Part shown: positions 3,882 through 34,794 of the stretch, in pieces
Layout of the letters: the number at the start of each line of letters is the position of its first letter
How positions within the stretch are numbered: position 1 is the stretch's first letter
Virus record (IMG/VR): IMGVR_UViG_3300045258_000151
Span: 1-42,196 of that record
Strand: one strand, 5' to 3'
DNA: 42,196 nt
Source of the DNA: a virus
Notes under the pieces: generated by a model
Told to the model about the DNA's origin: nothing
What the model saw: only the letters and a program-made list of their open reading frames with translations
Database searches by the model: none
Position numbers and translations under genes: made by a program

Positions 3882-4504
3882 CGCCGTCCGCTCTCCACGA
3901 GCGCGAGGCGGCGACGTTCGACCTCGGCCAGCACGGCCGCTGTGTGATCCGGCGCCGCCAATGTGGGGGCCGCCGGCAGGCCGTCGAGCGGCCCGATGTG
4001 CGCGGGCGGTTGGTCACGGTGCAGGCCCGGCAAGATCACGGGGTCCGCGGGCCGGCGGGCCACGATGACCGGAAAAAGCGCGAGAAACGTCTGCCGACGA
4101 ATGGCCCAGCCAGGGCTGTCGGTGTCATACCGGCACGCCTCGGCCCACGACCCGAAGACTTGCCGCACGGTCTCGCCGAACGCGGCATCGGCGAAGGCCG
4201 CGCCGCGATACGCACCAATGCGCCGAATCTCGGCCTCGAGTCGCCCCCAGGCCGCATGCGCGAGCGCGTGGACATCGACCGGCGGCGCCAGCACCCCGAG
4301 TAAATCCGACAGGCGCGGAAAAAATGGCGACTGCCGCATCCACATCCGGGCCGCGGCTTCCAGCGCCTCCGGCGAATAGGACGCGAGCCCGTCCAGGTAA
4401 ACGGCGAGCTGCGTCTCGTTGAGCGGGTAGTTCTGACCATCGCGCGTGGCGTAGAACGCCTGCAACACGCGAAGGGTGACGCGAACGGCGGCGGCGGGCG
4501 TCAT
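3878..4504 (-). CDS. putative replicative-helicase loader-like protein
   Basis: A 208-aa protein encoded directly after a DUF1376-type replication protein with an ATGA overlap. The N-terminal region (AFYATRDGQNYPLNETQLAVYLDGLA; SPFFPRLSDLLGVLA, about residues 16-75) resembles small phage helicase-loader/G39P-like proteins that measure host-helicase recruitment at the origin. The C-terminal half is Pro/Ala-rich and variable. No ATP-binding motif is visible, so it is not a DnaC-type ATPase. The assignment rests on gene order and general helical pattern, so it is tentative. Confidence 0.5.
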   Translation of the reverse strand: MTPAAAVRVTLRVLQAFYATRDGQNYPLNETQLAVYLDGLASYSPEALEAAARMWMRQSPFFPRLSDLLGVLAPPVDVHALAHAAWGRLEAEIRRIGAYRGAAFADAAFGETVRQVFGSWAEACRYDTDSPGWAIRRQTFLALFPVIVARRPADPVILPGLHRDQPPAHIGPLDGLPAAPTLAAPDHTAAVLAEVERRRLALVESGRR

Positions 4505-5280
4505 GGTTTGCTCCTGGCGAGCACGCGGTCCCAGGCGAGATCGGTGGGGTCCGGCATCTCAAAGGGCTCGTCTTCCCACTGCCGGCCGTTGAGCCAGGTG
4601 GCCGGATGCGGCACGAACCGGCCGCCGTCTTTCAGCCAGCCCGGCTGCTGACACTGCCACTCGAGCGCGCGGGTCATGCGGTCGACGAGCACGGCATCGA
4701 CGGCGAGTTTCTGCCACGCCTTCCACGCCTCGGCTTTTGAGACCTTCCGCGGATAGGCGGTCCAGAAGCGGGCAAAGAGCGGGTCGGTCACACGCCCCGG
4801 CGCAGCCGGGGTCTGTGTCTTGATCTTTGGAGTAGGAGATGGATCAGGAATAGGAATAGGAATAGGAGTAGGAGGGGTTATCTGGGGCTTTTGATTCGGC
4901 AAACCCGGGGCTTTAGCCGGGGCTTTTTGCGGACGGCCGCCGAGTATCCCTTTGGCGCGCTGTCGCGCGACGAAGTCGTCCCGCTCGACGCGCGTGCGCT
5001 CGAGCCGCAGATTGATCCAGCCGTCCGGCGTGCGCTGCCATTTCGCACGCACTTCGGCCCAAATCTCGGCAAACGGCGGATCGGTAGGGCTCAGATGCAT
5101 CGCCTTCCACATCGCGGCTTCGTTGTCTGGAATCGGGCCGACTTCCCACGCACTGCACAACATGCTGATATAGGCCCCGACGGCGGCACGACTCATCAAC
5201 ATCGTCCCAGTCAAAAAATCGCCGGTGAAAAACGGCAAACTCGGCCGGCGAACCATCCGTAGCTCCGCGACGGCGCTCAC
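4501..5280 (-). CDS. DUF1376-type phage replication protein
   Basis: A 259-aa protein with an N-terminal DUF1376 domain (PSLPFFTGDFLTGTMLMS, about residues 12-29, continuing GAYISMLCSAWEVG) and a C-terminal segment typical of phage O-like replication proteins (FWTAYPRKVSKAEAWKAWQKL in two overlapping parts, then PHPATWLNGRQWEDE). The two are joined by a Pro/Ile repeat linker coded by a hexamer repeat (about 4838-4875). It probably initiates phage DNA replication together with the next gene. Start GTG at 5280 overlaps the upstream stop as GTGA; ATG at 5256 is the alternative. Confidence 0.75.
   Translation of the reverse strand: MSAVAELRMVRRPSLPFFTGDFLTGTMLMSRAAVGAYISMLCSAWEVGPIPDNEAAMWKAMHLSPTDPPFAEIWAEVRAKWQRTPDGWINLRLERTRVERDDFVARQRAKGILGGRPQKAPAKAPGLPNQKPQITPPTPIPIPIPDPSPTPKIKTQTPAAPGRVTDPLFARFWTAYPRKVSKAEAWKAWQKLAVDAVLVDRMTRALEWQCQQPGWLKDGGRFVPHPATWLNGRQWEDEPFEMPDPTDLAWDRVLARSKP
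4838..4877. repeat. GGAATA hexamer microsatellite
   Basis: Imperfect tandem copies of the hexamer GGAATA inside the DUF1376-type gene, coding alternating proline and isoleucine in the inter-domain linker. Length could vary by slippage without a frameshift, since each unit is two codons. Confidence 0.7.
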
Positions 5281-7981: not shown

Positions 7982-8005
7982 TTCTCCAAAAAGTTCTCCA
8001 AAGGA
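7982..8005 (+). repeat. integrase arm-type sites, right pair
   Basis: Two tandem 12-bp units TTCTCCAAAAAG and TTCTCCAAAGGA, in the same orientation and period as the pair at 7741-7764. Together they bracket the tRNA-derived core. Confidence 0.65.
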
Positions 8006-8018
8006 ATCCGACGAAACG

Positions 8019-8216
8019 TCAGCGAACCCGCGTCAGCCGGGCGATCATGCCGGCCAGTTGGCCCAAGTGCAGATAGAGCGTGCTGCGCGGTGTCCGGTCG
8101 GCCCGATCGGCGTCACGGTAATACACAAACAGCGCCGCGGCGAAGGTCTCCGGGTCGTCGATCGCCATCAACTCAGCCGCCATCGCTAGGTCGGCGGGTG
8201 TCCGTTGATCCTCCAT
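8019..8216 (-). CDS. small hypothetical protein, third gene of brnTA operon
   Basis: A 65-aa, mostly helical and acidic protein (LAMAAELMAIDDPETFAAAL) with a basic end LTRVR. It starts 2 nt after the brnA stop, so it is co-transcribed with the toxin-antitoxin pair, and it is the last leftward gene before attP. Family not recognised. It could modify the toxin system or be unrelated cargo. Confidence 0.65.
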   Translation of the reverse strand: MEDQRTPADLAMAAELMAIDDPETFAAALFVYYRDADRADRTPRSTLYLHLGQLAGMIARLTRVR

Positions 8217-8218
8217 CG

Positions 8219-8533
8219 TCAGGACGCCTTCCGTCGTCGCCCGGTGGTCGTGCGCTTACTCGACACGAGCGCGAAGAGCGCGGCCTCGAGCCGGGTCTGC
8301 CAGCCGGGCCCTTGCTCTCGAAAATGGAGCACAATTTCCGGTCGCAGTCGGATCGTAATCGGCACCTTGGTCGGCGTCTTCTGTGGCCCTCGGCCGTGGC
8401 GGTGCTGCCAGGCGGCGATGTTCCGCAGGAACTTCGGCGAAAGCACTTCGACACCGCTCTTGGAGGCGCGCATCATCTCAAGGGTCCATTCGGGGTTTTC
8501 CTTGGTCGGCGTGTCATATCGTCGCTTGGGCAT
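8219..8533 (-). CDS. brnA: BrnA-type antitoxin
   Basis: A 104-aa protein with the BrnA/DUF4415 signature: KVPITIRLRPEIVLHFREQG (about residues 60-79) followed by PGWQTRLEAALFALV, a ribbon-helix-helix DNA-binding unit. BrnA neutralises the BrnT ribonuclease and represses the shared promoter. The gene overlaps brnT by 20 nt, as is usual for this type II system. An N-terminal extension (EWTLEMMRASKSGVEVLSP) looks like the toxin-contacting arm. Confidence 0.88.
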   Translation of the reverse strand: MPKRRYDTPTKENPEWTLEMMRASKSGVEVLSPKFLRNIAAWQHRHGRGPQKTPTKVPITIRLRPEIVLHFREQGPGWQTRLEAALFALVSSKRTTTGRRRKAS

Positions 8534-8783
8534 ACCGTCTCCTCTCTCGTCGGCTGGCTGGACGCAAACTGATGAGGTGTAGTCGATCGCCGCGCGGGGT
8601 CACGATCGCCGCGTAGAGTCGGCCGTCGATGTGGCCGAGGTATTTGTCGCGCACCGCATCAGTTCCGGGTCGCGTGGGCAGGCACATGGCGCCAGCCCAG
8701 TCAAAGGCATACGCCCGCTCGAACGGAATGCCGTGGTCGATGAGATTGCCCGCGTATTTCTCCGGCCGCCATTCCAGTTCCAC
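8514..8783 (-). CDS. brnT: BrnT-type ribonuclease toxin
   Basis: An 89-aa BrnT-family toxin: the opening ELEWRPEKYAGNLIDHGIPF, then YLGHIDGRLYAAIVTPRGDR and ISLRPASRRERRRY follow the family pattern along its full length. BrnT is a RelE-like ribonuclease that halts translation, held inactive by BrnA from the next gene. Start is GTG at 8783. In a prophage, the pair can stabilise the lysogen or act against other phages; neither can be decided here. Confidence 0.88.
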   Translation of the reverse strand: MELEWRPEKYAGNLIDHGIPFERAYAFDWAGAMCLPTRPGTDAVRDKYLGHIDGRLYAAIVTPRGDRLHLISLRPASRRERRRYAQATI

Positions 8784-8792
8784 GCTACGTAT

Positions 8793-8823
8793 ATTGTATG
8801 CACAAAATACGCGCCTTGGTCAA
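8793..8823 (-). promoter_or_regulatory. brnTA promoter and operator
   Basis: Minus-strand -35 TTGACC (8818-8823), 19-nt spacer, -10 TACAAT (8793-8798), GTG start 9 nt further on. An imperfect inverted repeat (GTATTTTGT / ACAATATAC, about 8790-8811) overlaps the -10 region and is the likely BrnA operator. Confidence 0.6.
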
Positions 8824-8831
8824 CCAGAGCG

Positions 8832-9035
8832 TTAACGGTGCCGCTTCCGCGCCGGCCGCAGGTCAATGCGCCAGTCGCCGTCGACATACACGGCCTCGAA
8901 GTCGCGGGCACACACCCGGCAGAAGAACCTGGACGGCGCGTAGGGTTCGAGCGGAATGACATCTTGCCGGCAGGCGGCGCACCGGGGTGGACTCGCGGGC
9001 GCCGTCAGCCGCTTCAGCGCGGCCAGCAGCGACAT
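8832..9035 (-). CDS. zinc-ribbon small protein
   Basis: A 67-aa protein with two Cys pairs, CAACRQD (about residues 19-25) and CRVCARDFE (about 39-47), then a short basic end RPARKRHR: a zinc ribbon. A -10-like TACACT (9042-9047) ends 6 nt before its ATG, so it is probably expressed separately and leaderless. Similar small zinc proteins occur at 750, 39854 and 40709. Function unknown. Confidence 0.7.
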   Translation of the reverse strand: MSLLAALKRLTAPASPPRCAACRQDVIPLEPYAPSRFFCRVCARDFEAVYVDGDWRIDLRPARKRHR

Positions 9036-9041
9036 GCCCCT

Positions 9042-9047
9042 AGTGTA
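9042..9047 (-). promoter_or_regulatory. -10 box TACACT, leaderless start for 9035 gene
   Basis: TACACT on the minus strand with 6 nt to the ATG at 9035. No good -35 box seen. Confidence 0.4.
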
Positions 9048-9053
9048 CCGCCG

Positions 9054-9143
9054 TCATTCACTGTGGAGCACGAGCACGACGGCCACGAGCAGGCCGCCCA
9101 CCACCAGCCCCACGGCAGCGCCAATCACGAGCGCGGCGGTCAT
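9054..9143 (-). CDS. 29-aa single-span membrane peptide
   Basis: ATGA overlap with the stop of the 81-aa gene upstream gives a 29-aa peptide, MTAALVIGAAVGLVVGG plus LLVAVVLVL and a short polar end: one transmembrane helix and nothing else. It is at the 3' end of the tail operon. It could be a small lysis or membrane-modifying factor; the size alone cannot decide. It is too short for most gene callers. Confidence 0.55.
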   Translation of the reverse strand: MTAALVIGAAVGLVVGGLLVAVVLVLHSE

Positions 9144-9385
9144 GGGACCAGCGGCGTGGCATCCGCCAGGCCGAGCAACGCGCGCAGGATGAGCGCGAAC
9201 TCGGGTGTGACGACCACGCCGATGAGCACCTGGCGGTCAGCGGACGCCGTCGATCGCAGCCGGAAGGTGTGCGTCACCTCTGGCGGCGGGCGCGTCCCGT
9301 CCGCGATGAAGCAGAGCTTCGTCACGAACCGCTGCGCCTCGGGATGGGTGCCGAGCCAGGAGTCGAGCAGTTGCTGGATGTTCAT
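9140..9385 (-). CDS. hypothetical protein
   Basis: An 81-aa protein (MNIQQLLDSWLGTHPEAQRF at the start) with a helical beginning and a mixed beta middle (VLIGVVVTPEFALILRALLG). Family not recognised. It follows the barrel-like tail protein gene by 12 nt on the same strand and is coupled to the membrane peptide after it. Confidence 0.6.
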   Translation of the reverse strand: MNIQQLLDSWLGTHPEAQRFVTKLCFIADGTRPPPEVTHTFRLRSTASADRQVLIGVVVTPEFALILRALLGLADATPLVP

Positions 9386-9397
9386 GGGAACGATCCT

Positions 9398-10450
9398 CTA
9401 GAGCGGCGAGCCGTCGTCCCGCGACGCATCGTTAAAGTACGCGCCCTGCATCGTCTGGTCGTGGTAGTGACTCGCCATCACATACCGCCCCTTCTGCCGG
9501 CCATAGAGCGCCATCGCATCTGACGGCTGGTCGTACAATCCCTGCGCGGACTGTTCGGCGCAGCACAACCGCAACGGCGGCGGCAACGACTGCAACACCT
9601 TGGCATCGTTCGACTGCAACTCGTCGAGCTGCGTGTTGTGGTCGAGCTGGCCGAGGTGGCCGTCGAGATAGTTCACCGCGAACGTCTGGAAGCTGAAGCG
9701 GTCGCACACGCCGAAGCGCATACACGACCCGTTCGGGTCGTGCTCGTCTTCCGGCGTCCACCACGCACACGCCCCGTTGAGCCAATGCACCCACCGGCCG
9801 AGCTGGTGCGGCACACAATAGGCCGACTGCAGGATCAACTCGTCGCAGAGCCGCGGCGGGTCGTAGTAGCGGTCGACCTGCCAGCAGAAGCACACGCTAT
9901 CTTCGCCCGGCACGAGCGCGCCCTTGGCCAGCAAGTGATCCAGCCACGGCACCGCCACGTCGAAGCTGTCGCCATCCGAGACGGCGTTCATCATCACAAA
10001 CAGCCCGCGCGCCTTCGCCTTGAGCGCGGCCGTCGTCAGTTGCTCGAGCGTCATCCCGTTGTTCTTGCCGTGCGGAATGGACAACAGCACATGCGTGAAG
10101 ACGGTCGCGTAGTAGTCCAGCACGTAGTCTTCGTCGGCCTCGGGCATGGTCGGCACGTCCCAGGTCATCACGACCCGGCGGTCCTTGTCGTTGTAGCCGC
10201 CCGTGAACCCCGGCACGATGAGACAAAAGTTGCCCCGGCAGAAGAACCGATCGGGATGGTCCGGCACTGGCGGCAGCGCCGAGTCAATTTCTTCCTTCCG
10301 CCAGCACTGAGATTCAGGGTCAGGCGGTTGCTCGTTCCGTGCAGGAGGCTTCGGCGGCAACGGCTCACGGGACGCGAGCGGCCAGTGCCGGCCCGGGGGC
10401 GGCGTCGGGCCACTGCCAAGCGCCGGCAGATAAAACGCATGGGCGCTCAC
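9398..10450 (-). CDS. putative barrel-fold tail protein, possible carbohydrate-active
   Basis: A 350-aa protein. After a Pro-rich start it shows alternating strand/helix units with acidic strand ends that suggest a TIM barrel: VVMTWDVPTM, THVLLSIPHG, GLFVMMNAVSDGD, VCFCWQVDRYYDP, VHWLNGACAWW (about residues 80-250). Conserved Asp/Glu, Trp and His at these ends would fit a glycoside-hydrolase-like site in a tail spike. It is coupled (GTGA) to the larger fibre gene at 10447-12216, whose middle also looks barrel-like. Depolymerase activity is an inference, not shown. Confidence 0.5.
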   Translation of the reverse strand: MSAHAFYLPALGSGPTPPPGRHWPLASREPLPPKPPARNEQPPDPESQCWRKEEIDSALPPVPDHPDRFFCRGNFCLIVPGFTGGYNDKDRRVVMTWDVPTMPEADEDYVLDYYATVFTHVLLSIPHGKNNGMTLEQLTTAALKAKARGLFVMMNAVSDGDSFDVAVPWLDHLLAKGALVPGEDSVCFCWQVDRYYDPPRLCDELILQSAYCVPHQLGRWVHWLNGACAWWTPEDEHDPNGSCMRFGVCDRFSFQTFAVNYLDGHLGQLDHNTQLDELQSNDAKVLQSLPPPLRLCCAEQSAQGLYDQPSDAMALYGRQKGRYVMASHYHDQTMQGAYFNDASRDDGSPL

Positions 10451-12216
10451 TGGGCCGCCAAGGTCGCGTCGACGTCGCAGCCCTTCTCGACGAGCAGCCG
10501 CCAGACGTCGGTATAGCCTTGCCCGTAGTTGTTCTTGTCCTTGTTCATGGCCCCGTCGTGCAGAATGGACAACGCCTTCCCCGCGGCCACGTCGGGCGCC
10601 GCGCCACCGGACAGCATCGCCCAGCCGCCGAGGAACCCTTGCACATAGTCGCCGTCCGGCTTCACGGCCCGAATGGCGGTCTGGAAGTCCTCGTAGCCAC
10701 TCGTCGGGTGCGGCACGGCGAACGGTGCCGTCACCGTCAGCGAGACGGGCGACTTCCCCGCTTGATGGACAAACGGCCAACTAGTCACAGGCGGAATCGG
10801 CATAGGCACCTCACTGGGCGGCACGATGGGTGGATCGGGCGGAATCGGCGGGTCAATGGGCGGATCGGGCGGTTCAGGCGGCACCGGCGGGTCCGGCATC
10901 GGCGTCCACGCCGGCTCGCCGAGCACACTGGCATCGAGCGTCCGTCCATACATCTCGGCGATCGGCGGCCGTCCCGTAATGCCGTTCACCCGCTCATACT
11001 GAAACGGCGCGATGACTTTCCAGCGCGCGTTCGTGTTGATGGTCGTGAGCGACGACGCGATGGCGTCGACGGTCGCCTGGTCGCCGAAGTCCCCGTAATA
11101 CATCGGGACAAGGCCGAGGTCGTGGCACGGACTGGCCAACGCGGCGGCCTCCGCGCGTGTCCACCGGGCCCGTGCGTCGGCCAGCGTCTCGCCGGCCACA
11201 AGATATTCTTCGACCCAGACTTGATCCCAGGCCTTCAACTCGCGCGGCACCACGGGCGGCTCAGGGCTGTCCTGCAGCCACGCAATGCGGCACCCCAGCC
11301 GGTCGGCCACGATGCGCGCGTGCTCGACGCCGCGGTCGCCGTGGTCTTGCGCGTAGACGCCCACGAGCGTCTCATCCTCGGCCGCCCGGTCAATGGCCGT
11401 CGTCCCGCCGTCCAGGTCAAACCCCACCCAGCACGGCCGCGGCACGGCTTGACGGGCGCCGTCGATCACGACTTCGCTGTCGGCTTCTGACGTGCCGTCC
11501 GGGTCTTTGAACGGCGCGATCGAGACGGCATGCGCGAAGGGCGCAATCGCCGGATAGACGACGGTCGGGCTCTGGTCAATGACGGGCAACGCGCGCAGTT
11601 CGTCCATCGTCGCCCAGACAATCACCGCCGGCTCGCCGGCGTGCCGCACCATGGCCAGTGAGACATCGTTCCCGACCCGCTGCCCGCGAATGAAAAAACA
11701 ATCACCGGGTTCGACCATGCGGAGGTCGTGCCCATCCCAGAGCGCACAGCCCGGCGTGACATTGCACTGCCCCACGTACAGGCCGTCGCCTAAGTAAGTC
11801 CACTCGGCCAAGCCGAAATCCGACCCGAGCGTCTGATCGCCCGTCACGAGCGCGCCGGTCTCGACGTCCACATAGCGGTAGCCCTGCGAGCCCACCGCCG
11901 GGCCGCAGTCGGAGATGTGGAGCGTCCCGGCCAGGTCGTAGATGACCGGCGACACCCCGCACGGGACGATGGGCCGGGGCACCCAGCCCGTGCCTTCGAT
12001 CCATTCGATCGTCTCGGGGGAATTGCTCGACTGGCCGGCAAACTTGAACGGGCCCTCGCGCGGCACGCGCACATACAGCGGCCGGGCATCGCGCGGAATC
12101 GTCAGCCGTTCCGTATCGAGCTGCATGCCGGGGCCGTCGTCGACGACCAGACACGCAAACCGCCCGTCGGGCCGGGCATCGACATAGGTGCCGAAGGGAA
12201 TGTGGAGCGTTCTCAT
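10447..12216 (-). CDS. large tail fibre/spike protein with duplicated N-terminal module
   Basis: A 589-aa protein. Residues 1 to about 210 are clearly homologous to the start of the 355-aa protein at 23078-24145 (shared GTYVDARPDGR, FKFAGQSSNSP, GTGWVPR, QGYRYVDV, GSDFGLA, GLYVGQCN). Residues about 270-420 look like an enzyme barrel (ARIVADRLGCRIAWLQDS, LVPMYYGDFGDQATVDAI). A Pro-rich linker (PPVPPEPPDPPIDPP) leads to a C-terminal helical domain. The layout suggests a virion-attachment head, a sugar-processing or lysis-like body and a distal domain. Start is ATG, ATGA-coupled to the holin-like gene. Confidence 0.55.
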   Translation of the reverse strand: MRTLHIPFGTYVDARPDGRFACLVVDDGPGMQLDTERLTIPRDARPLYVRVPREGPFKFAGQSSNSPETIEWIEGTGWVPRPIVPCGVSPVIYDLAGTLHISDCGPAVGSQGYRYVDVETGALVTGDQTLGSDFGLAEWTYLGDGLYVGQCNVTPGCALWDGHDLRMVEPGDCFFIRGQRVGNDVSLAMVRHAGEPAVIVWATMDELRALPVIDQSPTVVYPAIAPFAHAVSIAPFKDPDGTSEADSEVVIDGARQAVPRPCWVGFDLDGGTTAIDRAAEDETLVGVYAQDHGDRGVEHARIVADRLGCRIAWLQDSPEPPVVPRELKAWDQVWVEEYLVAGETLADARARWTRAEAAALASPCHDLGLVPMYYGDFGDQATVDAIASSLTTINTNARWKVIAPFQYERVNGITGRPPIAEMYGRTLDASVLGEPAWTPMPDPPVPPEPPDPPIDPPIPPDPPIVPPSEVPMPIPPVTSWPFVHQAGKSPVSLTVTAPFAVPHPTSGYEDFQTAIRAVKPDGDYVQGFLGGWAMLSGGAAPDVAAGKALSILHDGAMNKDKNNYGQGYTDVWRLLVEKGCDVDATLAAQ

Positions 12217-20576: not shown

Positions 20577-21404
20577 TCAGCCGAGATAGGCCACGCTCGT
20601 CGCGCCGCCGCCGCCACTCGTCGCGGGTTCCTGCATCCCGACCACGGCCACGCGCAGCATCCGACTCGCCGACGTATTGCTACTGCAGTTACAGCGCACC
20701 GCGAGGCGCGTACCGGCGGCAATCGTGATCGGCAGACGCATCGCCTGCGGGCGTGTCTGGTCGGCCGCGCTGTTGGCCACGATCAAGAGGTCCGCCAGCA
20801 CGACCACCTCCGACCCGGCGGCCCCGGTGGCCACATCGACACTCCATTGGGTAAAGGACGGCACGGCGGTCGTCGTGGAGGTATCGAAGAAGATGCTGAG
20901 GAGCAGTGCATCGATCCGCGCCGTCGTGCTGGCCGTCAGTTGGGCGTAGGCCCCTTTCGTATTGATCGTGCCGCCGGGGTCCACCTGGGTGCCGCGCGAA
21001 TTGGCCGTCGAGGTGCCATAGGTGACGGGGGCCGTGAGCGACCCGAGGGCGCGATTGTCCTGCGCGAGTTGCACGTTCATGGTCGTGGCGCTGCCGTTAT
21101 TGGTCTGAATCCGGACGGCCAGCCGCGTGCCGGTCGGAATATCGACGTCGACGGGCATGACGAGGCCCGTGCAAAAATCGCTATCGCTGACGCACGAGAT
21201 ATTGCTGATGACCACGGTTTCCGACCCGGCGCCCCCGGTGGCCACATCCAGCAGGACCGAGAGACCGGCGAGCCCAGCGGAGGCCGTCAGGACCACGAGG
21301 CGCGAGCTGTCGAACGTGGTCGCGGCCGTGACTTGGGTGTAGGCCCCTTTCGTGTTGACCGTGCCACTGGTCGCGGTCACGAACGGATAGACGGTCGTCG
21401 CCAT
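20577..21404 (-). CDS. tail/virion protein with internal duplication
   Basis: A 275-aa beta-rich protein built from two related halves of about 125 residues. The first has GTVNTKGAYTQVTA and GAGSETVVISNI and GTRLAVRIQTNNGSA; the second has GTINTKGAYAQLTA, AAGSEVVVLADL and GTRLAVRCNCSSNTS. Such domains with Ser/Thr-rich strands fit fibre or decoration proteins. Located between fibre and ejection genes. Confidence 0.6.
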   Translation of the reverse strand: MATTVYPFVTATSGTVNTKGAYTQVTAATTFDSSRLVVLTASAGLAGLSVLLDVATGGAGSETVVISNISCVSDSDFCTGLVMPVDVDIPTGTRLAVRIQTNNGSATTMNVQLAQDNRALGSLTAPVTYGTSTANSRGTQVDPGGTINTKGAYAQLTASTTARIDALLLSIFFDTSTTTAVPSFTQWSVDVATGAAGSEVVVLADLLIVANSAADQTRPQAMRLPITIAAGTRLAVRCNCSSNTSASRMLRVAVVGMQEPATSGGGGATSVAYLG

Positions 21405-22560: not shown

Positions 22561-23081
22561 CAGACCCCCGTGCTCGCCACGCGCAGAAAGACCTGGCTGG
22601 CCGTGTTGATCGTGGTGCCGTTACTGACCCAGGCGATGGGCAGGCTGGCGTAGAGGCCTTGGTCGGTCGGTACCCCGGTCGTGACCATCCGGAGATAGCG
22701 CCCATGCTCGTCTTTGTCTTGCATGACGATCGTCGAGCCGGTCGGGATAATCATGATGCCCCAATACAAGTCCTGGTCGTCGGCCGAGACGAAGCGCAGC
22801 CAGAGGGTCGTCGCCGTCGTCCAGGGAAAGGCGGCGTTCAGCCGCGCCTGCCCGGCAGAGGGCGGCGCGGTGAGCGTGCTGTTGAACGTGTAATTGAACA
22901 CGCCCGTCCGGCCCGTATAGGACGCCCAGGTCAGGCCATCGGATCGTTGCAGCACGCCCGTGTCGGTCGAAAAGTAGAGCGTGCCGACCAAGACGTCGCC
23001 TGCCGCTGGCTTGGCCGTGCTGAGGCCGGCGCGGTGGATGCCCTCGGTCTTGCGAAACGCTTGCGGCGGCGCGAGCGTCAT
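22560..23081 (-). CDS. tail protein, beta-sandwich
   Basis: A 173-aa protein starting MTLAPPQAFRKTEGIHRAG and containing LYFSTDTGVLQRSDGLTWAS, a motif shared with the next fibre gene (YYATDTATTTQSDGTTWA), then a beta domain (NAAFPWTTATTLWLRFVSAD; STIVMQDKDEHGRY). This is probably a fibre-associated virion protein. It is ATGA-coupled to the 355-aa fibre gene upstream. Confidence 0.6.
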   Translation of the reverse strand: MTLAPPQAFRKTEGIHRAGLSTAKPAAGDVLVGTLYFSTDTGVLQRSDGLTWASYTGRTGVFNYTFNSTLTAPPSAGQARLNAAFPWTTATTLWLRFVSADDQDLYWGIMIIPTGSTIVMQDKDEHGRYLRMVTTGVPTDQGLYASLPIAWVSNGTTINTASQVFLRVASTGV

Positions 23082-24145
23082 ACGGGCACCTGCACGATGA
23101 TGCACTCGCCCGCCGCATAAATCAGATCGGCCGCCACGAGATCCCCATCCGAGAGCGGCGCGTCGTAATGGGTCGCGGTCGGGCCGGTGCCGCCGGCCGT
23201 CACATCGAGCGTCTTCGTGAGCGGGTCACTCACAAACGCGACCGACCCGTCGGCGCTCGTGAACGTCAGCGTATCGGTCGGCACGGTGGCAGCGACCAGC
23301 GGCCCGCCGCCCGCGATGATCCCGAACCCGGCCGGCGGCGGCACGGGCGTCGGCTGAATGGCGATCGCGTGCGAGAGGTCGGCCTGGCCGGTCGTCTGCT
23401 GCTCGAAGAACATCGCCCACGGCCGGGTGACGCGATCGCCGGCCGCCGCATCCACCACCGGATGCTGCAGTGGCGGATGCACTTGCCCACCGCCGGGCGA
23501 GAGCGTCTTCCCCGCGCGCAGCTCGGCCATCGTGGCAAAGACGACGACCGACGGGACGCCCGCGTCTTTCACCATCGCAATCGCGACGTCGTTGCCCACC
23601 CGTTGCGCGCGAATGAAGAAGCAGTTGCCTTCTTCAATCATTCTGAGATCGGTGCCGTCCCACGACGCGCAGCCGGGGGTCGTGTTGCACTGGCCGATAT
23701 AGAACCCGTCGCCCAGGAGCGTCCATTGCGCCAGGCCGAAGTCGGACCCATAGGTCGCATCGGCCGAGACAATCGCGCCGGTGTCGACATCGACATACCG
23801 ATAGCCTTGCGTCCCGACGCCGACTTCGCACGCCGAGATGTGCAGGACGCCACTGTGGTCATAGATGACCGGCGACACGCCGCACGGCACGGTCGCGCGG
23901 GGCACCCAGCCCGTGCCCTCCAGGTATTCGATGGTCTGCGGGGAATTGCTGCTCTGCCCCGCGAACTTGAACGCGCCGTCGCGCGTGACGCGCAGATAGA
24001 GCGGGCGCGCATCCCCCGGAATCGCGAGCGTGCCGGTGTCGGTCTCGATGGTCCCGACGTCGAACGCATCGACCACGAGGCAGGCGTAGCGGCCATCGGG
24101 CCGCGCGTCCACATAGGTGCCGTTCGTGATGCGGATCGTGTCCAT
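23078..24145 (-). CDS. tail fibre protein with shared N-terminal module
   Basis: A 355-aa protein whose first 210 residues match the start of the 589-aa protein at 10447-12216 (GTYVDARPDGR, FKFAGQSSNSP, GYRYVDVDTGA, NCFFIRAQRVGNDVAIAM). The remainder is a different, smaller beta domain (TLTFTSADGSVAFVSDP). Two proteins with one shared N-terminal module and different C-termini suggest that both dock at the same virion site, or that one docks on the other. Confidence 0.6.
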   Translation of the reverse strand: MDTIRITNGTYVDARPDGRYACLVVDAFDVGTIETDTGTLAIPGDARPLYLRVTRDGAFKFAGQSSNSPQTIEYLEGTGWVPRATVPCGVSPVIYDHSGVLHISACEVGVGTQGYRYVDVDTGAIVSADATYGSDFGLAQWTLLGDGFYIGQCNTTPGCASWDGTDLRMIEEGNCFFIRAQRVGNDVAIAMVKDAGVPSVVVFATMAELRAGKTLSPGGGQVHPPLQHPVVDAAAGDRVTRPWAMFFEQQTTGQADLSHAIAIQPTPVPPPAGFGIIAGGGPLVAATVPTDTLTFTSADGSVAFVSDPLTKTLDVTAGGTGPTATHYDAPLSDGDLVAADLIYAAGECIIVQVPV

Positions 24146-24240: not shown

Positions 24241-24702
24241 ATGACTGACGACAGCATAATCGACCGGAAACGCCGCCACAGCCAATTTCGCCACGGGTAT
24301 TCTCGCGGAGACACGAGTTTCAAACGGGAATATGACAGTTGGACCGCGATGCGTGAGCGCGTGTTCTCGACGCGCCATCATGCGTATGCACGCTACGGCG
24401 GCCGAGGTATTACGATTTGCCATGCCTGGGCATCGTTTCCGCAGTTTCTTGCGGACATGGGGCCACGGCCTGCGGGATGCACGCTCGACCGCATCAATAC
24501 GAACGGCCATTACGAGCCGACGAACTGCCGGTGGGCGACATGGATCGAACAGCAGAACAATCGAAGAGATTGTCGCCTGTATACGCTGAATGGCCGCACG
24601 CAATCGCTCTCGCAATGGGCGCGTGAACTCGGGATCAAACAGGACACCGCCAAAAAGCGCCTGAATCGCGGATGGTCGGTCGACAAAGCCTTTCATCGCT
24701 AA
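24241..24702 (+). CDS. HNH homing-type endonuclease (4 of 7), opposite strand
   Basis: A 153-aa HNH protein without the zinc N-terminal half of its relatives. It contains EYDSWTAMRERVF, YARYGGRGITICHAW, LDRINTNGHYEPTNCRWATW and a C-terminal HTH (SLSQWARELGIKQDTAKKRL). Encoded against the late operon, overlapping the 3' end of the second gp10 gene by 4 nt, and separated from the fibre gene start by a 95-bp non-coding stretch with a TAAAAT box. Free-standing homing endonuclease. Confidence 0.88.
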   Translation: MTDDSIIDRKRRHSQFRHGYSRGDTSFKREYDSWTAMRERVFSTRHHAYARYGGRGITICHAWASFPQFLADMGPRPAGCTLDRINTNGHYEPTNCRWATWIEQQNNRRDCRLYTLNGRTQSLSQWARELGIKQDTAKKRLNRGWSVDKAFHR

Positions 24703-26315
24703 CTCGATCCCTGCACGGGGTCAGGGGTCAGGAGGGCATCGATGAACACCACTTTGGCGTCCGCGCTGCACACGACGCGAAACACCCGATTTCTCGCTTG
24801 CCCCAAGCGCAGCCATCGGTAGCGGTAGCGGTGTTCGCCGATCCGCGCCCCTTCGTTGCGGTGCTCGTGGCCCCATGAGTGGCCGCCATCATCGGACCAT
24901 TGCAGCACGATGGGCATGGCCACGTCCGTGTCCCTGGGGCCACCGGCTTCCGTGAGCAGCTCGAACCCTGGAAACTTCAGGCGTTTGCCTTCGGCCCCGT
25001 CCCATAACACGGGCGCCTGGCGCAGCCGGCGAATCGGCTCGATCGTGCCGGGCGGGGCGGGCGGAATCGGCGGCGGGGGCGGCACGCCAATGGCGAACCA
25101 GAGCATCTCGCGGCCGACGCCGTCGCTGGCCGACCAGTTGAGCGTGAACGTCCCGGCGGGGTTCATCTCGGTGAGCGTGGCGACCGACGTGAACGTGGTG
25201 CTCGGCCCGTTGGCGCCGCCCGTCGGGAAGCGCAGGAGCGTCGTCCCGCTCAAAAAACAGGCGCCCGTGAGCGGCGCGGTGTCGGCGGTTTCCCCGACCC
25301 AGTAGGACGCTTGCCGGCCGTCCGCCGTGGCGCACCCGAAGACACACTCGGCGGCGGTCTGAATCGTCGTCGACGGCACGGCCCCGACGCTCACGACGAA
25401 GACGACCGCCGCATCGAGGCCGGTCGTGACGACCTGGGGCCCGGCGGTGGCCCGCTGAATCAGCGTGCCGGACGCCGTGACGATATTGGGCCCGCCGATG
25501 AGCAGGCCGGGATGGGCCGCACTCGGGCTGCTACTAAAGACGATGGTCGTCGGGTTCCAGGCGGTGACGTGCGGGCCGTCGGTGGCCGTGGTCGTGACGC
25601 CGTTATCGAACGAGACGTGGCTTTGGTAGCGCGCGGGCGCCGTGGTCTGGTTCCCGAGGAACGTGTGGGCCGCCATCGGCCCGCCCGTGGGCGAATCCCA
25701 GCCCCAGCCCCAGCCGGTGAGTCCGCCGGTGGCGGTGGCGATGATCCCGGTCGCGCTGAGCGCCTGCGTTTTCGGATTGAGCAGCCCCTTGGCCTGAAAC
25801 GGGGTCGGCATGGTCGCACTGACTGAGCCGGTGGGCCACGCCATCGCGAAGTCGCTGCCCGTCCCGAAGACGATCACGAGCACATCGGTCGGGACCGCGA
25901 AGTCCTCGGTGGTCACGGTCCACGTGAACCCGCCGGACGAGACGGCCGTGAGCGCCACCGTGCGATAGACGCGTCCGCCGGTCAAGAGCCGCGCCTGCAG
26001 GCTGTCCATCGCCGCGTCGGGGCCGTTGCCCCCGCCTTCATCGCCGATCTTGAAGCCGCCCGACCCGGGATACCACACATCGGCGGCGGCGTTGTAGCCG
26101 GACTTGCTGGTCGCGACCTCCGTCACGTTGGTATTGGCCGAGGCGGCCGTGAACGTGCCCGTGGGCTCGGCATGGAGCACATCGACTTCGCTCGAGCCGT
26201 TGACCGCGAGAATGACGGCGGGCGTAAAGGGCTCCCCGTCCGCATTGACGATGCCCGTCACGGCCTGGACCCCGAGGCCCGTGCGGATCCGCACCGTGCC
26301 GACCCAGACATTCAC
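24699..26315 (-). CDS. gp10-like tail hub, C-terminal half with large inserted module
   Basis: A 538-aa protein. Only its last 100 or so residues (PIRRLRQAPVLW, LQWSDDGGHSWGHEHRNEG, RYRWLRLGQARNRVFRV) match the C-terminus of the P22 gp10 packaged-DNA stabilisation protein. The first about 430 residues are a different beta-rich, Thr/Gly module (TGIVNADGEPFTPAVILAV; FTLNWSASDGVGREMLWFAI) followed by a Pro bridge (PPPPPIPPAPPG). The N-terminal part of gp10 is the separate gene upstream. Start GTG at 26315 overlaps its stop as GTGA, so the two halves are coupled and can be made in equal amounts. Confidence 0.75.
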   Translation of the reverse strand: MNVWVGTVRIRTGLGVQAVTGIVNADGEPFTPAVILAVNGSSEVDVLHAEPTGTFTAASANTNVTEVATSKSGYNAAADVWYPGSGGFKIGDEGGGNGPDAAMDSLQARLLTGGRVYRTVALTAVSSGGFTWTVTTEDFAVPTDVLVIVFGTGSDFAMAWPTGSVSATMPTPFQAKGLLNPKTQALSATGIIATATGGLTGWGWGWDSPTGGPMAAHTFLGNQTTAPARYQSHVSFDNGVTTTATDGPHVTAWNPTTIVFSSSPSAAHPGLLIGGPNIVTASGTLIQRATAGPQVVTTGLDAAVVFVVSVGAVPSTTIQTAAECVFGCATADGRQASYWVGETADTAPLTGACFLSGTTLLRFPTGGANGPSTTFTSVATLTEMNPAGTFTLNWSASDGVGREMLWFAIGVPPPPPIPPAPPGTIEPIRRLRQAPVLWDGAEGKRLKFPGFELLTEAGGPRDTDVAMPIVLQWSDDGGHSWGHEHRNEGARIGEHRYRYRWLRLGQARNRVFRVVCSADAKVVFIDALLTPDPVQGSS

Positions 26316-27433
26316 GCGACCCGCCGATCGGTATAGAGGGCGTTCGACAACGCGTAGATCATCCCGGTCGCAAAGTCCCCGAGGAGATGCGTCCCGAACC
26401 CGAACGTGTGGCACCGCCCGCGAAACGGCGTCCACACCTCGGCGTCACTGTCCCAGTGCGCCCACTCGGTCCACCGCTGACTGGCGGCGTCATAGACCCA
26501 GTGCGTGTCGTTGTGCGCCAGATAGAGCACATAGAAACTGTGGCCGTCGAGCTGACACGTCCACGCGACGGCGTCGGACACCTGCGGCAACGCCTGCAGG
26601 CGCGTCTCGAGCGCATGGGTTGAAATGCGCTTCGCGCTGTAGCCATCGGCCAAAAAGACTTGCGCGCCGCCGGCGAGCGTCTGGCCGAGCCAATAGAGCG
26701 TGTTATCCATCACGGCCGCTGACCACGGCGCGAGAATCCCGACTTGCATATCGGCGCCGAGCACGGGCTGCAGCGGGAACGTCGCGCCCGAGTCGTACCA
26801 GGGATTCACGCGGCTCACGGTAAACGGCCACAACTGGTTGTGACTGACGATGACGGACAAGACCCAGCCGGGTTGTTGACTGAGTTCCGCGACGTCGAGC
26901 GCGTCCCACGTCAGGCCATCTTCGAGATGCGACAAGTTGAATTGATTGCTCGCCGTCTTGAGCGCGCCGAAGTAGCCGTCAAGGAAGAAGCCCATCACGA
27001 CCGGCGTGGGAAAGCCGGGGGCGGTGATTTCGGTCAGCGTGTTGGCGACGAGGTCAAAGATGTAGCCATGGCCGCCGCTGACGATGAACAACTGATGCCC
27101 GCCCGAGCCGTCGCTGCCGCCGTTCGAGCAGATCGTCGCCGGGTTGCCGTCGGCGACGACCGTGCCGCGGATGACGGCGGTCTGGCCGGCAAACAGTTCG
27201 ACAAAGCGCGTGCCGCCGACGCCGAAGACGCGATCGTCCTGCGTGTAGAGCGCCCGCACCGGGCCTTGACCCATGTCAAGCCACGGCGCGATGCCGGGGC
27301 GGCTGTAGAGCGAGGCCGGGACTTTCGGGTTGGCGGCACTCGCTTCCCAGACGAGATTCACCGTGCGTTCGACGTCGATGTCGACCGAGCGCGCGACGTT
27401 ACTCGCGTCGACAAAGCCGGGGAGCTTCGACAC
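26312..27433 (-). CDS. gp10-like tail hub (packaged DNA stabilisation), N-terminal part
   Basis: A 373-aa protein covering about the first four fifths of the P22 gp10 family: VDIDVERTVNLVWEA near the start, LYSRPGIAPWLDMGQGPVRA, GGHGYIFDLVANTLTEI, MGFFLDGYFGAL, WVYDAASQRWTEWAHW, and HLLGDFATGMIYALS just before it ends at LYTDRRVA. In gp10 the chain continues with an IRRxR segment; here that is in the next gene. gp10 hubs plug the portal channel after packaging. GTG start directly adjoins the HNH stop. Confidence 0.85.
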   Translation of the reverse strand: MSKLPGFVDASNVARSVDIDVERTVNLVWEASAANPKVPASLYSRPGIAPWLDMGQGPVRALYTQDDRVFGVGGTRFVELFAGQTAVIRGTVVADGNPATICSNGGSDGSGGHQLFIVSGGHGYIFDLVANTLTEITAPGFPTPVVMGFFLDGYFGALKTASNQFNLSHLEDGLTWDALDVAELSQQPGWVLSVIVSHNQLWPFTVSRVNPWYDSGATFPLQPVLGADMQVGILAPWSAAVMDNTLYWLGQTLAGGAQVFLADGYSAKRISTHALETRLQALPQVSDAVAWTCQLDGHSFYVLYLAHNDTHWVYDAASQRWTEWAHWDSDAEVWTPFRGRCHTFGFGTHLLGDFATGMIYALSNALYTDRRVA

Positions 27434-27889
27434 TCACGGCTCCTCGTGGGTGACGTGCCGCCACGTGCGACGGTTGACGATCGCCCAAATGACCGCTTGC
27501 GTCACACCGAACTCGCGGGCCAGTTCGGGTTGACTGGCCATCGTGAGCCAGCACGCACGGATTTCCCGCACGGCATCGTCGGTGAGTTTGGCCGATCCCT
27601 GCCGCACGCCTTTGGCCTGCCGATTCTTCGTCATCATGTCGGCGGTATTGTCGGCGTGCGTACCCACGAACAAATGATCCGGGTTCACGCAGAGCGGCAC
27701 ATCACAGTGATGACAGACATACATGCCTGTCGGGATGGGACCGCGCGTCAATTCCCAGGCGACGCGATAGGCCAAGCCATAGGGGCGTCCACGGCCCATT
27801 GACACGTTGGGGCGGGTGCCTCGGCTGCCGGTCCACAGCCAACATGTGTCCGTCTTGTGGACGCGCTTCCAAAACCGTTGTGGGGTCAT
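27434..27889 (-). CDS. HNH endonuclease, class B paralogue (5 of 7)
   Basis: A 151-aa HNH protein: FWKRVHKTDTCWLWTGS, AYRVAWELTRGPIPTGMYVC, HHCDVPLCVNPDHLFVGTHA nuclease core and a C-terminal HTH (KLTDDAVREIRACWLTMASQ...FGV). The C-terminal half is nearly the same as the 37503 protein, showing one duplicated endonuclease. It sits between gp4 and gp10-like genes without breaking them. ATG at 27889 is the start giving the family-typical beginning. Confidence 0.88.
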   Translation of the reverse strand: MTPQRFWKRVHKTDTCWLWTGSRGTRPNVSMGRGRPYGLAYRVAWELTRGPIPTGMYVCHHCDVPLCVNPDHLFVGTHADNTADMMTKNRQAKGVRQGSAKLTDDAVREIRACWLTMASQPELAREFGVTQAVIWAIVNRRTWRHVTHEEP

Positions 27890-27893
27890 TGCG

Positions 27894-28637
27894 TCACTGG
27901 TCAGAAAATATATTCCAGGGCTTCCGCGATCCAAACGTCAGGGCAGGGTCCAGTGCCATATCCATAGATTTTGTATTTGCCGTTTTGACCCATGACAATG
28001 CGGATCTCGCTAATTCATCTAACTGTGAGGTCCACGGTTGGCTAAATGGGGCGGCCAAGCGTCTGGCGAGGTTATAGTGCAAAGCCTCTCGATAGCCGGG
28101 TGCCAACGCCACGGGCGTCGTGAGCGAGAGAAACCCTGCCGTGGGCTTCAAGCTATACATCACGAGGCTATTGGCGCCGGTCGTCGGCACGGGATAGAGA
28201 AAGAGCGTGGCCCAGGGATACGTTTCGTTGAAGTAAGCCGCCGTCGGGTAGATGGCGCTGAACGTTTTCATCGCGATCGACCGATACGCCTGGTCGGTCA
28301 AGTTGTCGAGCCAGAGTTCCTGGGGCGCGCTGCCGGTCACGAGCAAGAGCTTGAAGCCGTTGACGTAGGTCGGGCGCACGGTATCGAAGATGGCGCCGGG
28401 GCCGATGAGATACGGACTGTTCGGGCCGCCACGACCGGCGATGAGCGGGAAGGTCTCGCGCGTTTCGTTGAGAATCGTGCCGGGTTGGAGTTCCCACGTA
28501 TCGATCAGGTCATTCAACCGCTGCAGCGCGTCCTGGGCGTCGTCGGCCGACAAGGCTTCGCCGACGGCCTTGACGCCGAGGTCATCGAGCGCCTGGTCGA
28601 TGAGGATGCGCGCGGTCGTGGTGGCCGGAATCGCCAC
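27894..28637 (-). CDS. gp4-like head completion/tail accessory protein
   Basis: A 247-aa protein resembling P22 gp4, which seals the portal after packaging. Typical parts are the N-terminal LIDQALDDLGVKAVGEALSA, DALQRLNDLIDTWELQPGT, then ETYPWATLFLYPVP and LTTPVALAPGYREALHYNLA near the end. Order gp4, then gp10 downstream is as in P22-like phages. Some gp4 proteins also carry muramidase activity; no sign of that is visible here. Confidence 0.8.
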   Translation of the reverse strand: MAIPATTTARILIDQALDDLGVKAVGEALSADDAQDALQRLNDLIDTWELQPGTILNETRETFPLIAGRGGPNSPYLIGPGAIFDTVRPTYVNGFKLLLVTGSAPQELWLDNLTDQAYRSIAMKTFSAIYPTAAYFNETYPWATLFLYPVPTTGANSLVMYSLKPTAGFLSLTTPVALAPGYREALHYNLARRLAAPFSQPWTSQLDELARSALSWVKTANTKSMDMALDPALTFGSRKPWNIFSDQ

Positions 28638-32208: not shown

Positions 32209-32473
32209 GGGGCGGGCGTTCCTTCTGCAGTGTCTCGACTCTCGCGAGTCGTTCCCATTCCTCGGGGGGCCGCGTGTGTTTGAGGTAGACCGTCAGCGCC
32301 TCAAAGTAGTCGTCACGCCAACGACTCGCCGCCTCGTTCCACTCGGGCGATTGTTTCGTCCAGTCGCCGCCGCTCACGTTCGCCAGCACGACCCAGAGCA
32401 TCTCGGCGGCATCAGCCATCCGGGTCCACCCGGCGAGCAGCGGCGCCGTCTCGGGCGTCTCGGTCGTCGTCAT
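32198..32473 (-). CDS. conserved phage hypothetical protein
   Basis: A 91-aa protein with the conserved phage motif AAEMLWVVLANVSGGDWTKQ (about residues 22-41) then SPEWNEAASRWRDDYFEAL. The motif is familiar from genes next to the portal in several short-tailed phages, function unknown. ATGA-coupled to the portal gene. Confidence 0.7.
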   Translation of the reverse strand: MTTTETPETAPLLAGWTRMADAAEMLWVVLANVSGGDWTKQSPEWNEAASRWRDDYFEALTVYLKHTRPPEEWERLARVETLQKERPPHGH

Positions 32474-34794
32474 GCCGTCGGTTCGCCTTCCGCCGCGGGC
32501 TCGGGCGTCAGCGCCGCCTGCTGTTCGGCATTGGCCTGCGTGTGCTGCTGCGCTTGATCCGCTTGCTGCATGGTCTGGTCGTGGGTCAGGCCCGCCATGT
32601 TCACGTCATGGGTCCGGTCCATCGCCCCTTGATGCTCGTCATGTAAGAGCTGCGTCGCGTGCGTGAGCTTCTCCATGTGCAGATCGAGCGCCTTGCCCCA
32701 GCGGTTCTCGAGCGCATCAATATAGGTGCGCGCGTTCTCGGCATCGATCTTCGCGCCGGCGACCGCAATCTGCGCCGAGGCATTAATCATCGCGATCTTC
32801 TCGCGGCTCGCATTGTCGACTTGCGTTTCCTGCAGCTTGGCCTGCGCTTCGACTTGTTTCGTCTGAATCGCCATCTTCAGCTGCTGGTTTTCCTGCTGCA
32901 GCCCTTGGACGGCGGCTTGAATCTGCGGCGGCAAGTCGGTCTGCGCGCCGGGCGGCTTGATGCGGTCGGCAATGGCTTGCGCTTCGGGGAAGTCCATCGA
33001 CTTCACCCACAAATCCGCAAACTGGGGCACGAGCGGCGGCACGGCTTGCGCGAGCGCCGAGAGGCCGTCCATCGCCGCCTGCCGGCGCGTGGCGTAGGAC
33101 TTCCCGACGTCCACAATCACCGAATACTGGCCTTTGGACAGATCGAAGTGCTGCACCGGCGGCGCCATCGGCGCCCCTTGCGGTCCCGGTGGCCCCGGCA
33201 TCGGCGTCGGGCCGGCACTGGGCGTCATCGGACTCGGCTGGCCCGGCATGACCGGCTGCGGCTGGCCGCCCTGCGAGACAAACGGCTGATTGAGCATCAC
33301 GCGCTGCTGCTGGTCGTCGTCGCCGGTCAGAATCTGCACGACCCGGCCCGGCCGGTCATACACCTTGCCGAGCAGGTCATTGAGAATCACGCCCCCATGC
33401 CGAATCGCGCGCTGCAGATGATCCGGAAAGTTCGACGTGCCCTGTTCGCTCGCCTGCTGGAGCTGCGCGATGGCCCGGCCGCTCCGATCATTCGCATTGA
33501 CGTGGCCCAGCGCGGCGTCGGGCACCCCAGTCGTCGAGCGCACGAAGTTCACATACATGCCGATGGCTTCAGTCGATGGCGGATAGGTCGGAATGTTGCG
33601 CTCGGGCTTCGGCAGGACGGAATTGACGCCATCCGTGATGGCGTTCACTTCCAGATACGGCTGGTTGCGCGTATTGGCCGCCTGCCACTGCGCTTCAAAG
33701 CCTTCAAACTGGCCTTTGTAGCCAATCCACGGCGCTTTCGTGGCGAGCCCCATGTTCTCGGCGTCACTCGAGACCAAGTAGTTGATCATGCGGCACGGAT
33801 CGCGGTTCCCGCGCACGATCCCTTCCCACTGCCGCGCGCCCGACAGGTTCTTTTCGATGCCGATGACCGGGACAATCGGGATAAACTGCCCGTCCCATTC
33901 TTTCGGGCCGTCGAGCACCTCCATCCCGTTCACTTTCGCCCACATAATCGTGCGCGTCTTGATCTCGCGCGTCTGACTCGGGTCGGTCGGATGCGTTTCG
34001 GTGCGGCTCGCGTAGGTCGCGTACCAGTATTCGGCGATGCGATAGGCCGTCCCGGCCTTCTCGTCCTTCAGAATCCAATCCGGCCGCTGGTCGCCCATCG
34101 CGATGAGTTCTTCATCGTCGGCCGACGCGAGCTTGGAGTCCCCAAACTGCCGCACATACACGGCCTTCGGCAAGTCTTGCGTCACAAACGCCCACTCGGC
34201 CGCGCCGGGGTCGTTCAGATCCTGCGTGAACGGGTCCAGATACACGCTCGCGCCGTTGAGAATGGGACAAATCCGCAGATCCTGGTCCCACGCCGCCGGA
34301 TTCTCGCTGGCATCGTCCGGGTCGTCGATCGCATACACCTTGTCGATGCGGAAAAACCCGCGCCCGCACACGACCGCGCGGTTGTACGCCCACAGATACG
34401 CCGTCTGCGCGTGGCTGTCGTACTCGATCGCGCGAATCAGGCCTTGGCGCACGTCCGCATCGTCCTGGCTCGCATCGGACTTCGGCGAAATCTTGATGCC
34501 GAACCGCGCCGTACGCGCCTGGTTGACAATCTGCGCGGTCGGCTGGTCGAGCGTGCGAATGGTAATCATCGGCCGCGCGGGCGTCGGCTGGCCGGTCGCG
34601 CTCGTCCCGCCGCGCTGGCGCTTCACGTCCTCGGGCCACTGGTCGCCGGCATCAAAGCGCAAGTCTTCGTCTTCGCGCGTCCGCTGCGGGCGTTCGACAT
34701 CGGCGACGAAATGGAAGCGTTCGAGCGCCTCGGTGTGCAGCGCCTCCTCGGGTGTCTGCTTCGACTCGCGGCGCAATGCGACGACAGGTGCCAT
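32470..34794 (-). CDS. P22-like portal protein
   Basis: A 774-aa portal forming the dodecameric channel for DNA entry and exit. Family-like parts: DLRFDAGDQWPEDVKRQR near the start, TIRTLDQPTAQIVNQAR, RGFFRIDKVYAIDDPDDASE, SGARQWEGIVRGNRDPCRMI, NDRSGRAIAQLQQASEQGTS (about residues 430-450) and a helical, Gln-rich C-terminal barrel-like region (ALENRWGKALDLHMEKL). Length matches P22-type portals (about 725). A Pro/Gly insert (MPGPPGPQGAPMAPP) lies in the clip-region part. Confidence 0.9.
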   Translation of the reverse strand: MAPVVALRRESKQTPEEALHTEALERFHFVADVERPQRTREDEDLRFDAGDQWPEDVKRQRGGTSATGQPTPARPMITIRTLDQPTAQIVNQARTARFGIKISPKSDASQDDADVRQGLIRAIEYDSHAQTAYLWAYNRAVVCGRGFFRIDKVYAIDDPDDASENPAAWDQDLRICPILNGASVYLDPFTQDLNDPGAAEWAFVTQDLPKAVYVRQFGDSKLASADDEELIAMGDQRPDWILKDEKAGTAYRIAEYWYATYASRTETHPTDPSQTREIKTRTIMWAKVNGMEVLDGPKEWDGQFIPIVPVIGIEKNLSGARQWEGIVRGNRDPCRMINYLVSSDAENMGLATKAPWIGYKGQFEGFEAQWQAANTRNQPYLEVNAITDGVNSVLPKPERNIPTYPPSTEAIGMYVNFVRSTTGVPDAALGHVNANDRSGRAIAQLQQASEQGTSNFPDHLQRAIRHGGVILNDLLGKVYDRPGRVVQILTGDDDQQQRVMLNQPFVSQGGQPQPVMPGQPSPMTPSAGPTPMPGPPGPQGAPMAPPVQHFDLSKGQYSVIVDVGKSYATRRQAAMDGLSALAQAVPPLVPQFADLWVKSMDFPEAQAIADRIKPPGAQTDLPPQIQAAVQGLQQENQQLKMAIQTKQVEAQAKLQETQVDNASREKIAMINASAQIAVAGAKIDAENARTYIDALENRWGKALDLHMEKLTHATQLLHDEHQGAMDRTHDVNMAGLTHDQTMQQADQAQQHTQANAEQQAALTPEPAAEGEPTA

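Follow-up and report, generated by a model that had tools for sequence, protein, structure and literature searches.

Tail hubs of short-tailed phages

In short-tailed phages, the ring-shaped hub plugs the tail and keeps the DNA inside the particle. Since it also ranks among their best conserved tail proteins, an old and stable cut through it is unexpected. The closest described systems are the hubs of the P22 gp10 type, namely P22 gp10, Sf6 gp8 and the hubs of Pam1 and Pan3 (phrog_578, PF11134), whose known members consist of one chain of about 440-540 aa, which forms a hexameric ring between adaptor and needle, and whose gene adjoins an adaptor-like gene downstream of those for portal, scaffold and coat; in nine inspected phage records, gp10 is annotated as a single chain. 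The nozzles of T7 and SU10 are only distantly similar. In the single chain of T7 gp12, a fixed jelly-roll domain forms the dock of the gp17 fibres between the propeller and the C-terminal platform (PMC6702177), on the outer surface. The SU10 nozzle protein gp17 is also a single chain, in which N- and C-terminal parts together build a platform that binds the adaptor (PMC9509320); a loop on the edge of its blade 1 serves as fibre dock, and the inserted nozzle domains separate blade 2 from blade 3. The hubs of P22 and T7 are reported to be reliably alignable only in their central, channel-lining section (PMC10386132). Modular tail fibres and tailspikes, finally, join a conserved anchor to a swapped recognition-type domain, with the exchange point in a linker.

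A P22 gp10-type hub encoded by two genes

The locus described here lies in the IMG/VR virus record IMGVR_UViG_3300045258_000151, whose whole length of 42,196 bases was analysed and is called the window (Table 1). The first gene, gp10N, has a GTG start and encodes 373 aa that end in LYTDRRVA*; the second (gene 2), whose GTG start overlaps the stop codon of gp10N, encodes 538 aa, the hub part gp10C beginning at residue 428 (IRRLRQ, window position 25034). Against phrog_578, the PHROGs profile of head closure Hc3 of the P22 gp10 family (486 positions), gp10N covers positions 8-364 (E 1.1e-63), while positions 367-465 are matched by gene 2 over its residues 426-527 (E 1e-10), so that the two matches tile the profile with a gap of 2 positions; with Pfam PF11134, the window hub scores 15.3 bits, below the cut-off of 25. 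Six-frame searches of both strands of the 42 kb record with custom profiles revealed no further significant copy of gp10N or gp10C. In alignments, intact homologues continue as a single chain past the LYTDRR position into RRxRxAP...WSDDGGxTWS...RRLG, and the hub lengths of the window sum to 484 aa (373 + 111) versus 473-500 aa in intact relatives. The hubs examined outside the clade of split hubs are unbroken at this point, except for two loci cut elsewhere.

The tiling of the profile, the lack of another copy and the intact relatives that run on through the cut establish that the hub is split. The original prediction, made from the letters of the window, had placed a gp10-like chain up to LYTDRR in the first gene and the missing end only at the end of the second, with a summed length normal for gp10 and a GTGA overlap of the two frames, all of which is borne out. 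It would have fallen had the last ~110 residues of gene 2 not matched the gp10 family or had intact gp10 chains ended naturally at LYTDRR; neither is the case, and the unsplit gene that it proposed to look for in related phages was found. A module and a Pro bridge do lie between the hub parts as proposed, but the module measures 411 residues and not about 430. The hub gene also keeps its expected position after the portal, scaffold, coat and adaptor genes (scaffold and coat being assigned from gene order only). As the hub is nevertheless made from two genes, with a foreign module of ~411 aa on the second chain, it represents a split variant of the P22 gp10-type family and not an ordinary member.

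Table 1. Hub genes of the window, their parts and neighbouring features
Feature	Position	Strand	Basis or remark
gp10N: part of the P22 gp10-type tail hub with the N-terminal strands and the beta-propeller	26312..27433	-	phrog_578 match
Gene 2: module, Pro linker and gp10C	24699..26315	-	translation; phrog_578 match
GTGA stop/start overlap of gp10N and gene 2	26312..26315	-	sequence; junction survey of 13 split loci
Exchangeable module, gene 2 residues 1-411	25083..26315	-	unrelated to the module of the sister
Pro-rich linker PPPPPIPPAPPG, gene 2 residues 412-423	25047..25082	-	breakpoint DNA alignment with the sister
gp10C: C-terminal platform part, 111 aa, IRRLRQ to end	24702..25034	-	alignment to intact gp10
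Adaptor-like gene (phrog_12985/phrog_637)	27894-28637		profile match
Portal gene (phrog_156)	32470-34794		profile match
HNH endonuclease gene (phrog_3377)	24241-24702	+	4-nt overlap with the end of gene 2, opposite strand
HNH_3 endonuclease gene	27434-27934	-	between the adaptor-like gene and gp10N

Distribution and origin of the split

Profiles of the two hub parts were used to survey 304 loci, many of which nearly duplicate one another or are overlapping stretches taken from the same contig. Among the matches listed for these loci, the hub parts share one frame in 263 cases and occupy different frames in 26; this ratio is not a frequency because the survey was shaped by pattern scans, most of the further split loci having been supplied by a scan with an alignment of split-clade gp10N. 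The split occurs in at least 18 distinct IMG/VR contigs (the window, L002, L010, L169-L179, L181-L183 and L252), and a 19th, L180, has the same pattern and ends before gp10C. Each split locus, again among the matches listed, has one gp10N and one gp10C. In a maximum-likelihood tree of gp10N, which omits the later found L252, the split hubs constitute one clade with support of 100/99; L180 is labelled intact in the tree output for the sole reason that its gp10C lies beyond the contig end. The hubs of the adjacent clade (L014, L056, L098, L115) are intact. With all split hubs in one supported clade and intact hubs in its neighbour, it is simplest to assume that the split arose once, and it has been kept across hubs that are only 42-45% identical. 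The split-clade gp10N alignment found no relative in bacterial and archaeal genomes, no split was found in 42 annotated phage records with gp10N relatives, where gp10C matches directly downstream of gp10N, and no description of a split gp10 was found in the open-access literature. While the hub family is known, the split hub is thus new, no annotated phage having been found with it.

The same arrangement is present in a sister phage, IMGVR_UViG_3300047409_000338 (L002), where gp10N (8001-9125) and gene 2 (9122-10687) meet in an ATGA overlap. The gp10N proteins of window and sister share 94% of their amino acids (dN/dS 0.107) and the gp10C parts about 99% (dN/dS 0.064); both halves of the hub are under purifying selection. 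The two modules are unalignable (27% identity under forced alignment). In the DNA alignment, the similarity breaks off at the gene 2 start codon and comes back inside the Pro-rich linker; since both hub parts are kept and identity is lost only over this interval, the module has been replaced as a unit.

The overlap of the two genes raises the question as to whether they yield two chains or one. Across the 13 split loci of the junction survey, gp10N and gene 2 are joined by GTGA, ATGA or TGATG overlaps, by TAG followed by GTG or by short spacers, the relative frame being -1 in the majority, whereas it is +1 in L010 and 0 in L169, L178 and L181. Ribosomal frameshifting at the overlap, leading to one fused hub chain, could draw on the second frame, which is open for 132 nt (window) and 135 nt (sister) ahead of the gp10N stop; however, the 8 loci tested contain no slippery heptamer in their overlaps, the relative frames vary among loci and other genes intervene in L169 and L252, so that a programmed frameshift was rejected and this route to a fused chain is held to be very improbable. 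An assembly error or a decaying gene comes to mind with a record from an uncultured metagenome, but practically no room is left for either, as both are refuted by the recurrence of the same cut in at least 18 contigs of one supported clade, with hubs down to 42% identity, and by the dN/dS of 0.06-0.11 in both halves. That the hub consists of two separately translated chains is hence regarded as nearly certain.

Position of the cut in the hub fold

The intact relative L115 was modelled from 92 aligned hubs (pLDDT 95.5, pTM 0.93). With Foldseek, the model matches the hubs of Pan3 (9vyg), P22 (gp10, 8eap, TM 0.85), Sf6 (7sg7) and Pam1 (7eeq), with TM-scores of 0.81-0.85 by query length; the SU10 and T7 nozzles come next at about 0.5-0.63 by query length. 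In this predicted structure the cut corresponds to residue ~362 and is located in the loop that connects the final strand of the propeller (351-356) with the first strand of the C-terminal domain (370-378), that is, between the propeller and the C-terminal platform. The cut thereby fulfils the location of a T7-type dock. The likeness is one of position; the chain is broken here and carries varying modules, in contrast to the one chain and fixed dock of T7 gp12; the split hub likewise differs from the unbroken SU10 gp17 with its insertion between blades. A mean-field coupling analysis of 128 intact hubs (effective number 73) for contacts between gp10N and gp10C was uninformative, its top pairs being about as expected by chance.

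Exchangeable modules and linkers

No relative of the window module was found in Pfam, in the PDB or by BLASTP, gene 2 has no match among PDB sequences, and no recognised carbohydrate-binding or depolymerase fold was seen in the module with Pfam; a single-sequence structure prediction of gene 2 (pLDDT 30) was unusable. Taken together, the modules of the split loci fall into at least 8 classes without detectable relationship by BLASTP: those of the window, of the sister, of a group comprising L010, L170-173/179, L174 and L183, of L169, of L175/176, of L177, of L181 and of L182, the module of L178 having a weak link to the L010 group. A new domain on the second chain, as originally predicted, is thus present, though it is not one domain but a set of unrelated ones in different relatives. 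LamG-like domains occur in two loci, both with Pfam scores under the curated cut-off: in L010 (E 7e-5), where the domain precedes the shared part, and in L169. The gene that follows gp10N in L180 (2746-4641) encodes a right-handed beta helix (PF13229, above cut-off) with a weak polysaccharide deacetylase match. Judged by pairwise BLASTP, some modules resemble free-standing tail-region genes of these phages: that of L181 resembles a gene of the sister (L002 13686-14285, E 5e-13), and that of L182 resembles the window gene at 20577-21404 (E 3e-8). The latter, on the minus strand, encodes a two-repeat tail-region protein whose domain apparently recurs in the L182 hub module.

A Pro- or Gly-rich linker precedes gp10C in most split loci (besides that of the window, PPPPIPPPPPG, GGGGGGGG, PEPEPDPTPFPGPP and others), and none is evident in L175 and L181. 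As in modular tail fibres and tailspikes, the exchange point lies in a linker, but here a C-terminal piece of the hub itself serves as the anchor and it is the N-terminal part that is exchanged. The fusion of module and gp10C is not universal, since in L169 they are two successive genes, gp10C standing nearly alone in a 161-aa gene. In L252, at least 4 ORFs separate gp10N from the module-gp10C region, where gp10C has a frameshift at RRLRR that is perhaps a sequencing error. In L010, a small ORF with one hydrophobic stretch (MSGPILKDATYFGFWAGALLLGLLAQVVEIALLWAILREVRR) lies between gp10N and gene 2 (4425-4552). The last ~80 positions of phrog_19101 (595 positions, function unknown) match gp10C, whereas for its first ~510 positions none of the scanned hubs gave a gp10N match; this family may hold further module-gp10C proteins.

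A hub probably completed in trans

The explanation that accounts best for these observations, and that is thought probable without being secure, is a two-gene hub in which a second chain, bearing an exchangeable module that likely serves host contact, completes the platform in trans. Gene 1 would supply the N-terminal strands and the beta-propeller that lines the DNA channel of a P22-like podophage hub, and gene 2 the C-terminal platform strands, a flexible linker and a large, putatively beta-rich module. Six copies of the second chain would complete the platforms of six copies of the first by strand sharing, the platform domain being presumed to act as in T7 and SU10, where it contacts the adaptor ring. 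As the genes are translationally coupled, the two chains would be made together; with a chain and a linker of its own, the module could be replaced by recombination between start codon and linker, leaving the propeller untouched. The completion in trans is inferred by analogy and without protein-level evidence, yet there is good reason to expect it; the platform roles are drawn from hubs of T7 and SU10 that are only distantly similar. By analogy with the same two nozzle structures, the module is inferred to be displayed outwards and would hang outside the hub at the place of the T7 fibre dock, most likely contacting the host surface or mounting other tail parts. The host-contact role is likewise an inference, towards which the evidence leans. 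The division of the hub into two subunits with a new domain on a separate chain, as put forward in the original prediction, is supported at the level of genes only, by the conservation of the split, the purifying selection and the separate genes in varying frames.

Two further readings accept both chains and assign them other tasks. In one, gp10N alone is the working hub and gp10C merely anchors the module on the adaptor or elsewhere, which would suit the nearly solitary gp10C gene of L169 and the ORFs that separate the two hub parts in L252; however, gp10N would then be left without the platform strands of the C-terminus, the conserved residues of gp10C are retained under strong purifying selection and each split locus retains one copy of each part, so that this reading is considered rather unlikely. 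The other keeps the two-chain hub and confines the module to virion assembly or stability or to the mounting of fibres, without host contact. The dock that occupies the same position in T7 holds fibres and is not a receptor binder (PMC6702177), and tail-fibre-like genes follow gp10C in several loci. Still, wholesale replacement between close relatives next to a conserved hub is the pattern expected of host-contact parts, and weakly matched LamG-like domains and a beta-helix fold occur; a purely structural module is unlikely, though it remains a serious alternative. A hub that is demonstrably split at a defined position, with a split both conserved and old, halves under selection in separate frames and modules exchanged, suggests a hub-based mount for interchangeable host-contact parts. 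It is conceivable, if somewhat doubtful, that the arrangement constitutes a two-component socket that can take six copies of any one of many unrelated host-contact domains at the position of the T7 fibre dock, while the channel stays unchanged.

If the reading of a hub completed in trans is true, two chains can together build the platform, nature offers a precedent for the attachment of arbitrary domains to the tail hub, and hub-borne adhesins emerge as a class that annotation overlooks, since only the last ~110 residues of gene 2 match the hub.

Flanking genes and other hub variants

Both HNH genes next to the hub have relatives elsewhere in the window, one in the case of the HNH_3 gene, of which the sister has no copy, and several in the case of the phrog_3377 gene, of which a diverged copy stands at the same place in the sister. 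HNH endonucleases were dismissed as the general driver of module exchange, as a search of the other split loci for similarity to the two HNH proteins of the window left hub-flanking copies only in window and sister. Two minus-strand genes of the window (23078-24145 and 10447-12216), one encoding 589 aa and one 355 aa, have paralogous starts with 74% DNA identity; the 355-aa gene lies downstream of the split hub.

A second, different break was observed in another hub clade (L244 6679-7014, L246 5454-5693), where an Ig-like or longer insert is followed by the end of the chain within the C-terminal domain, and a small separate ORF encodes the last ~70-95 platform residues. Intact hubs also carry in-frame inserts, in the C-terminal domain (L119, L145, L152) or in the N-terminal, propeller part (L097, L107, L137, L144 and others), which indicates that several loops of the hub accept inserts.
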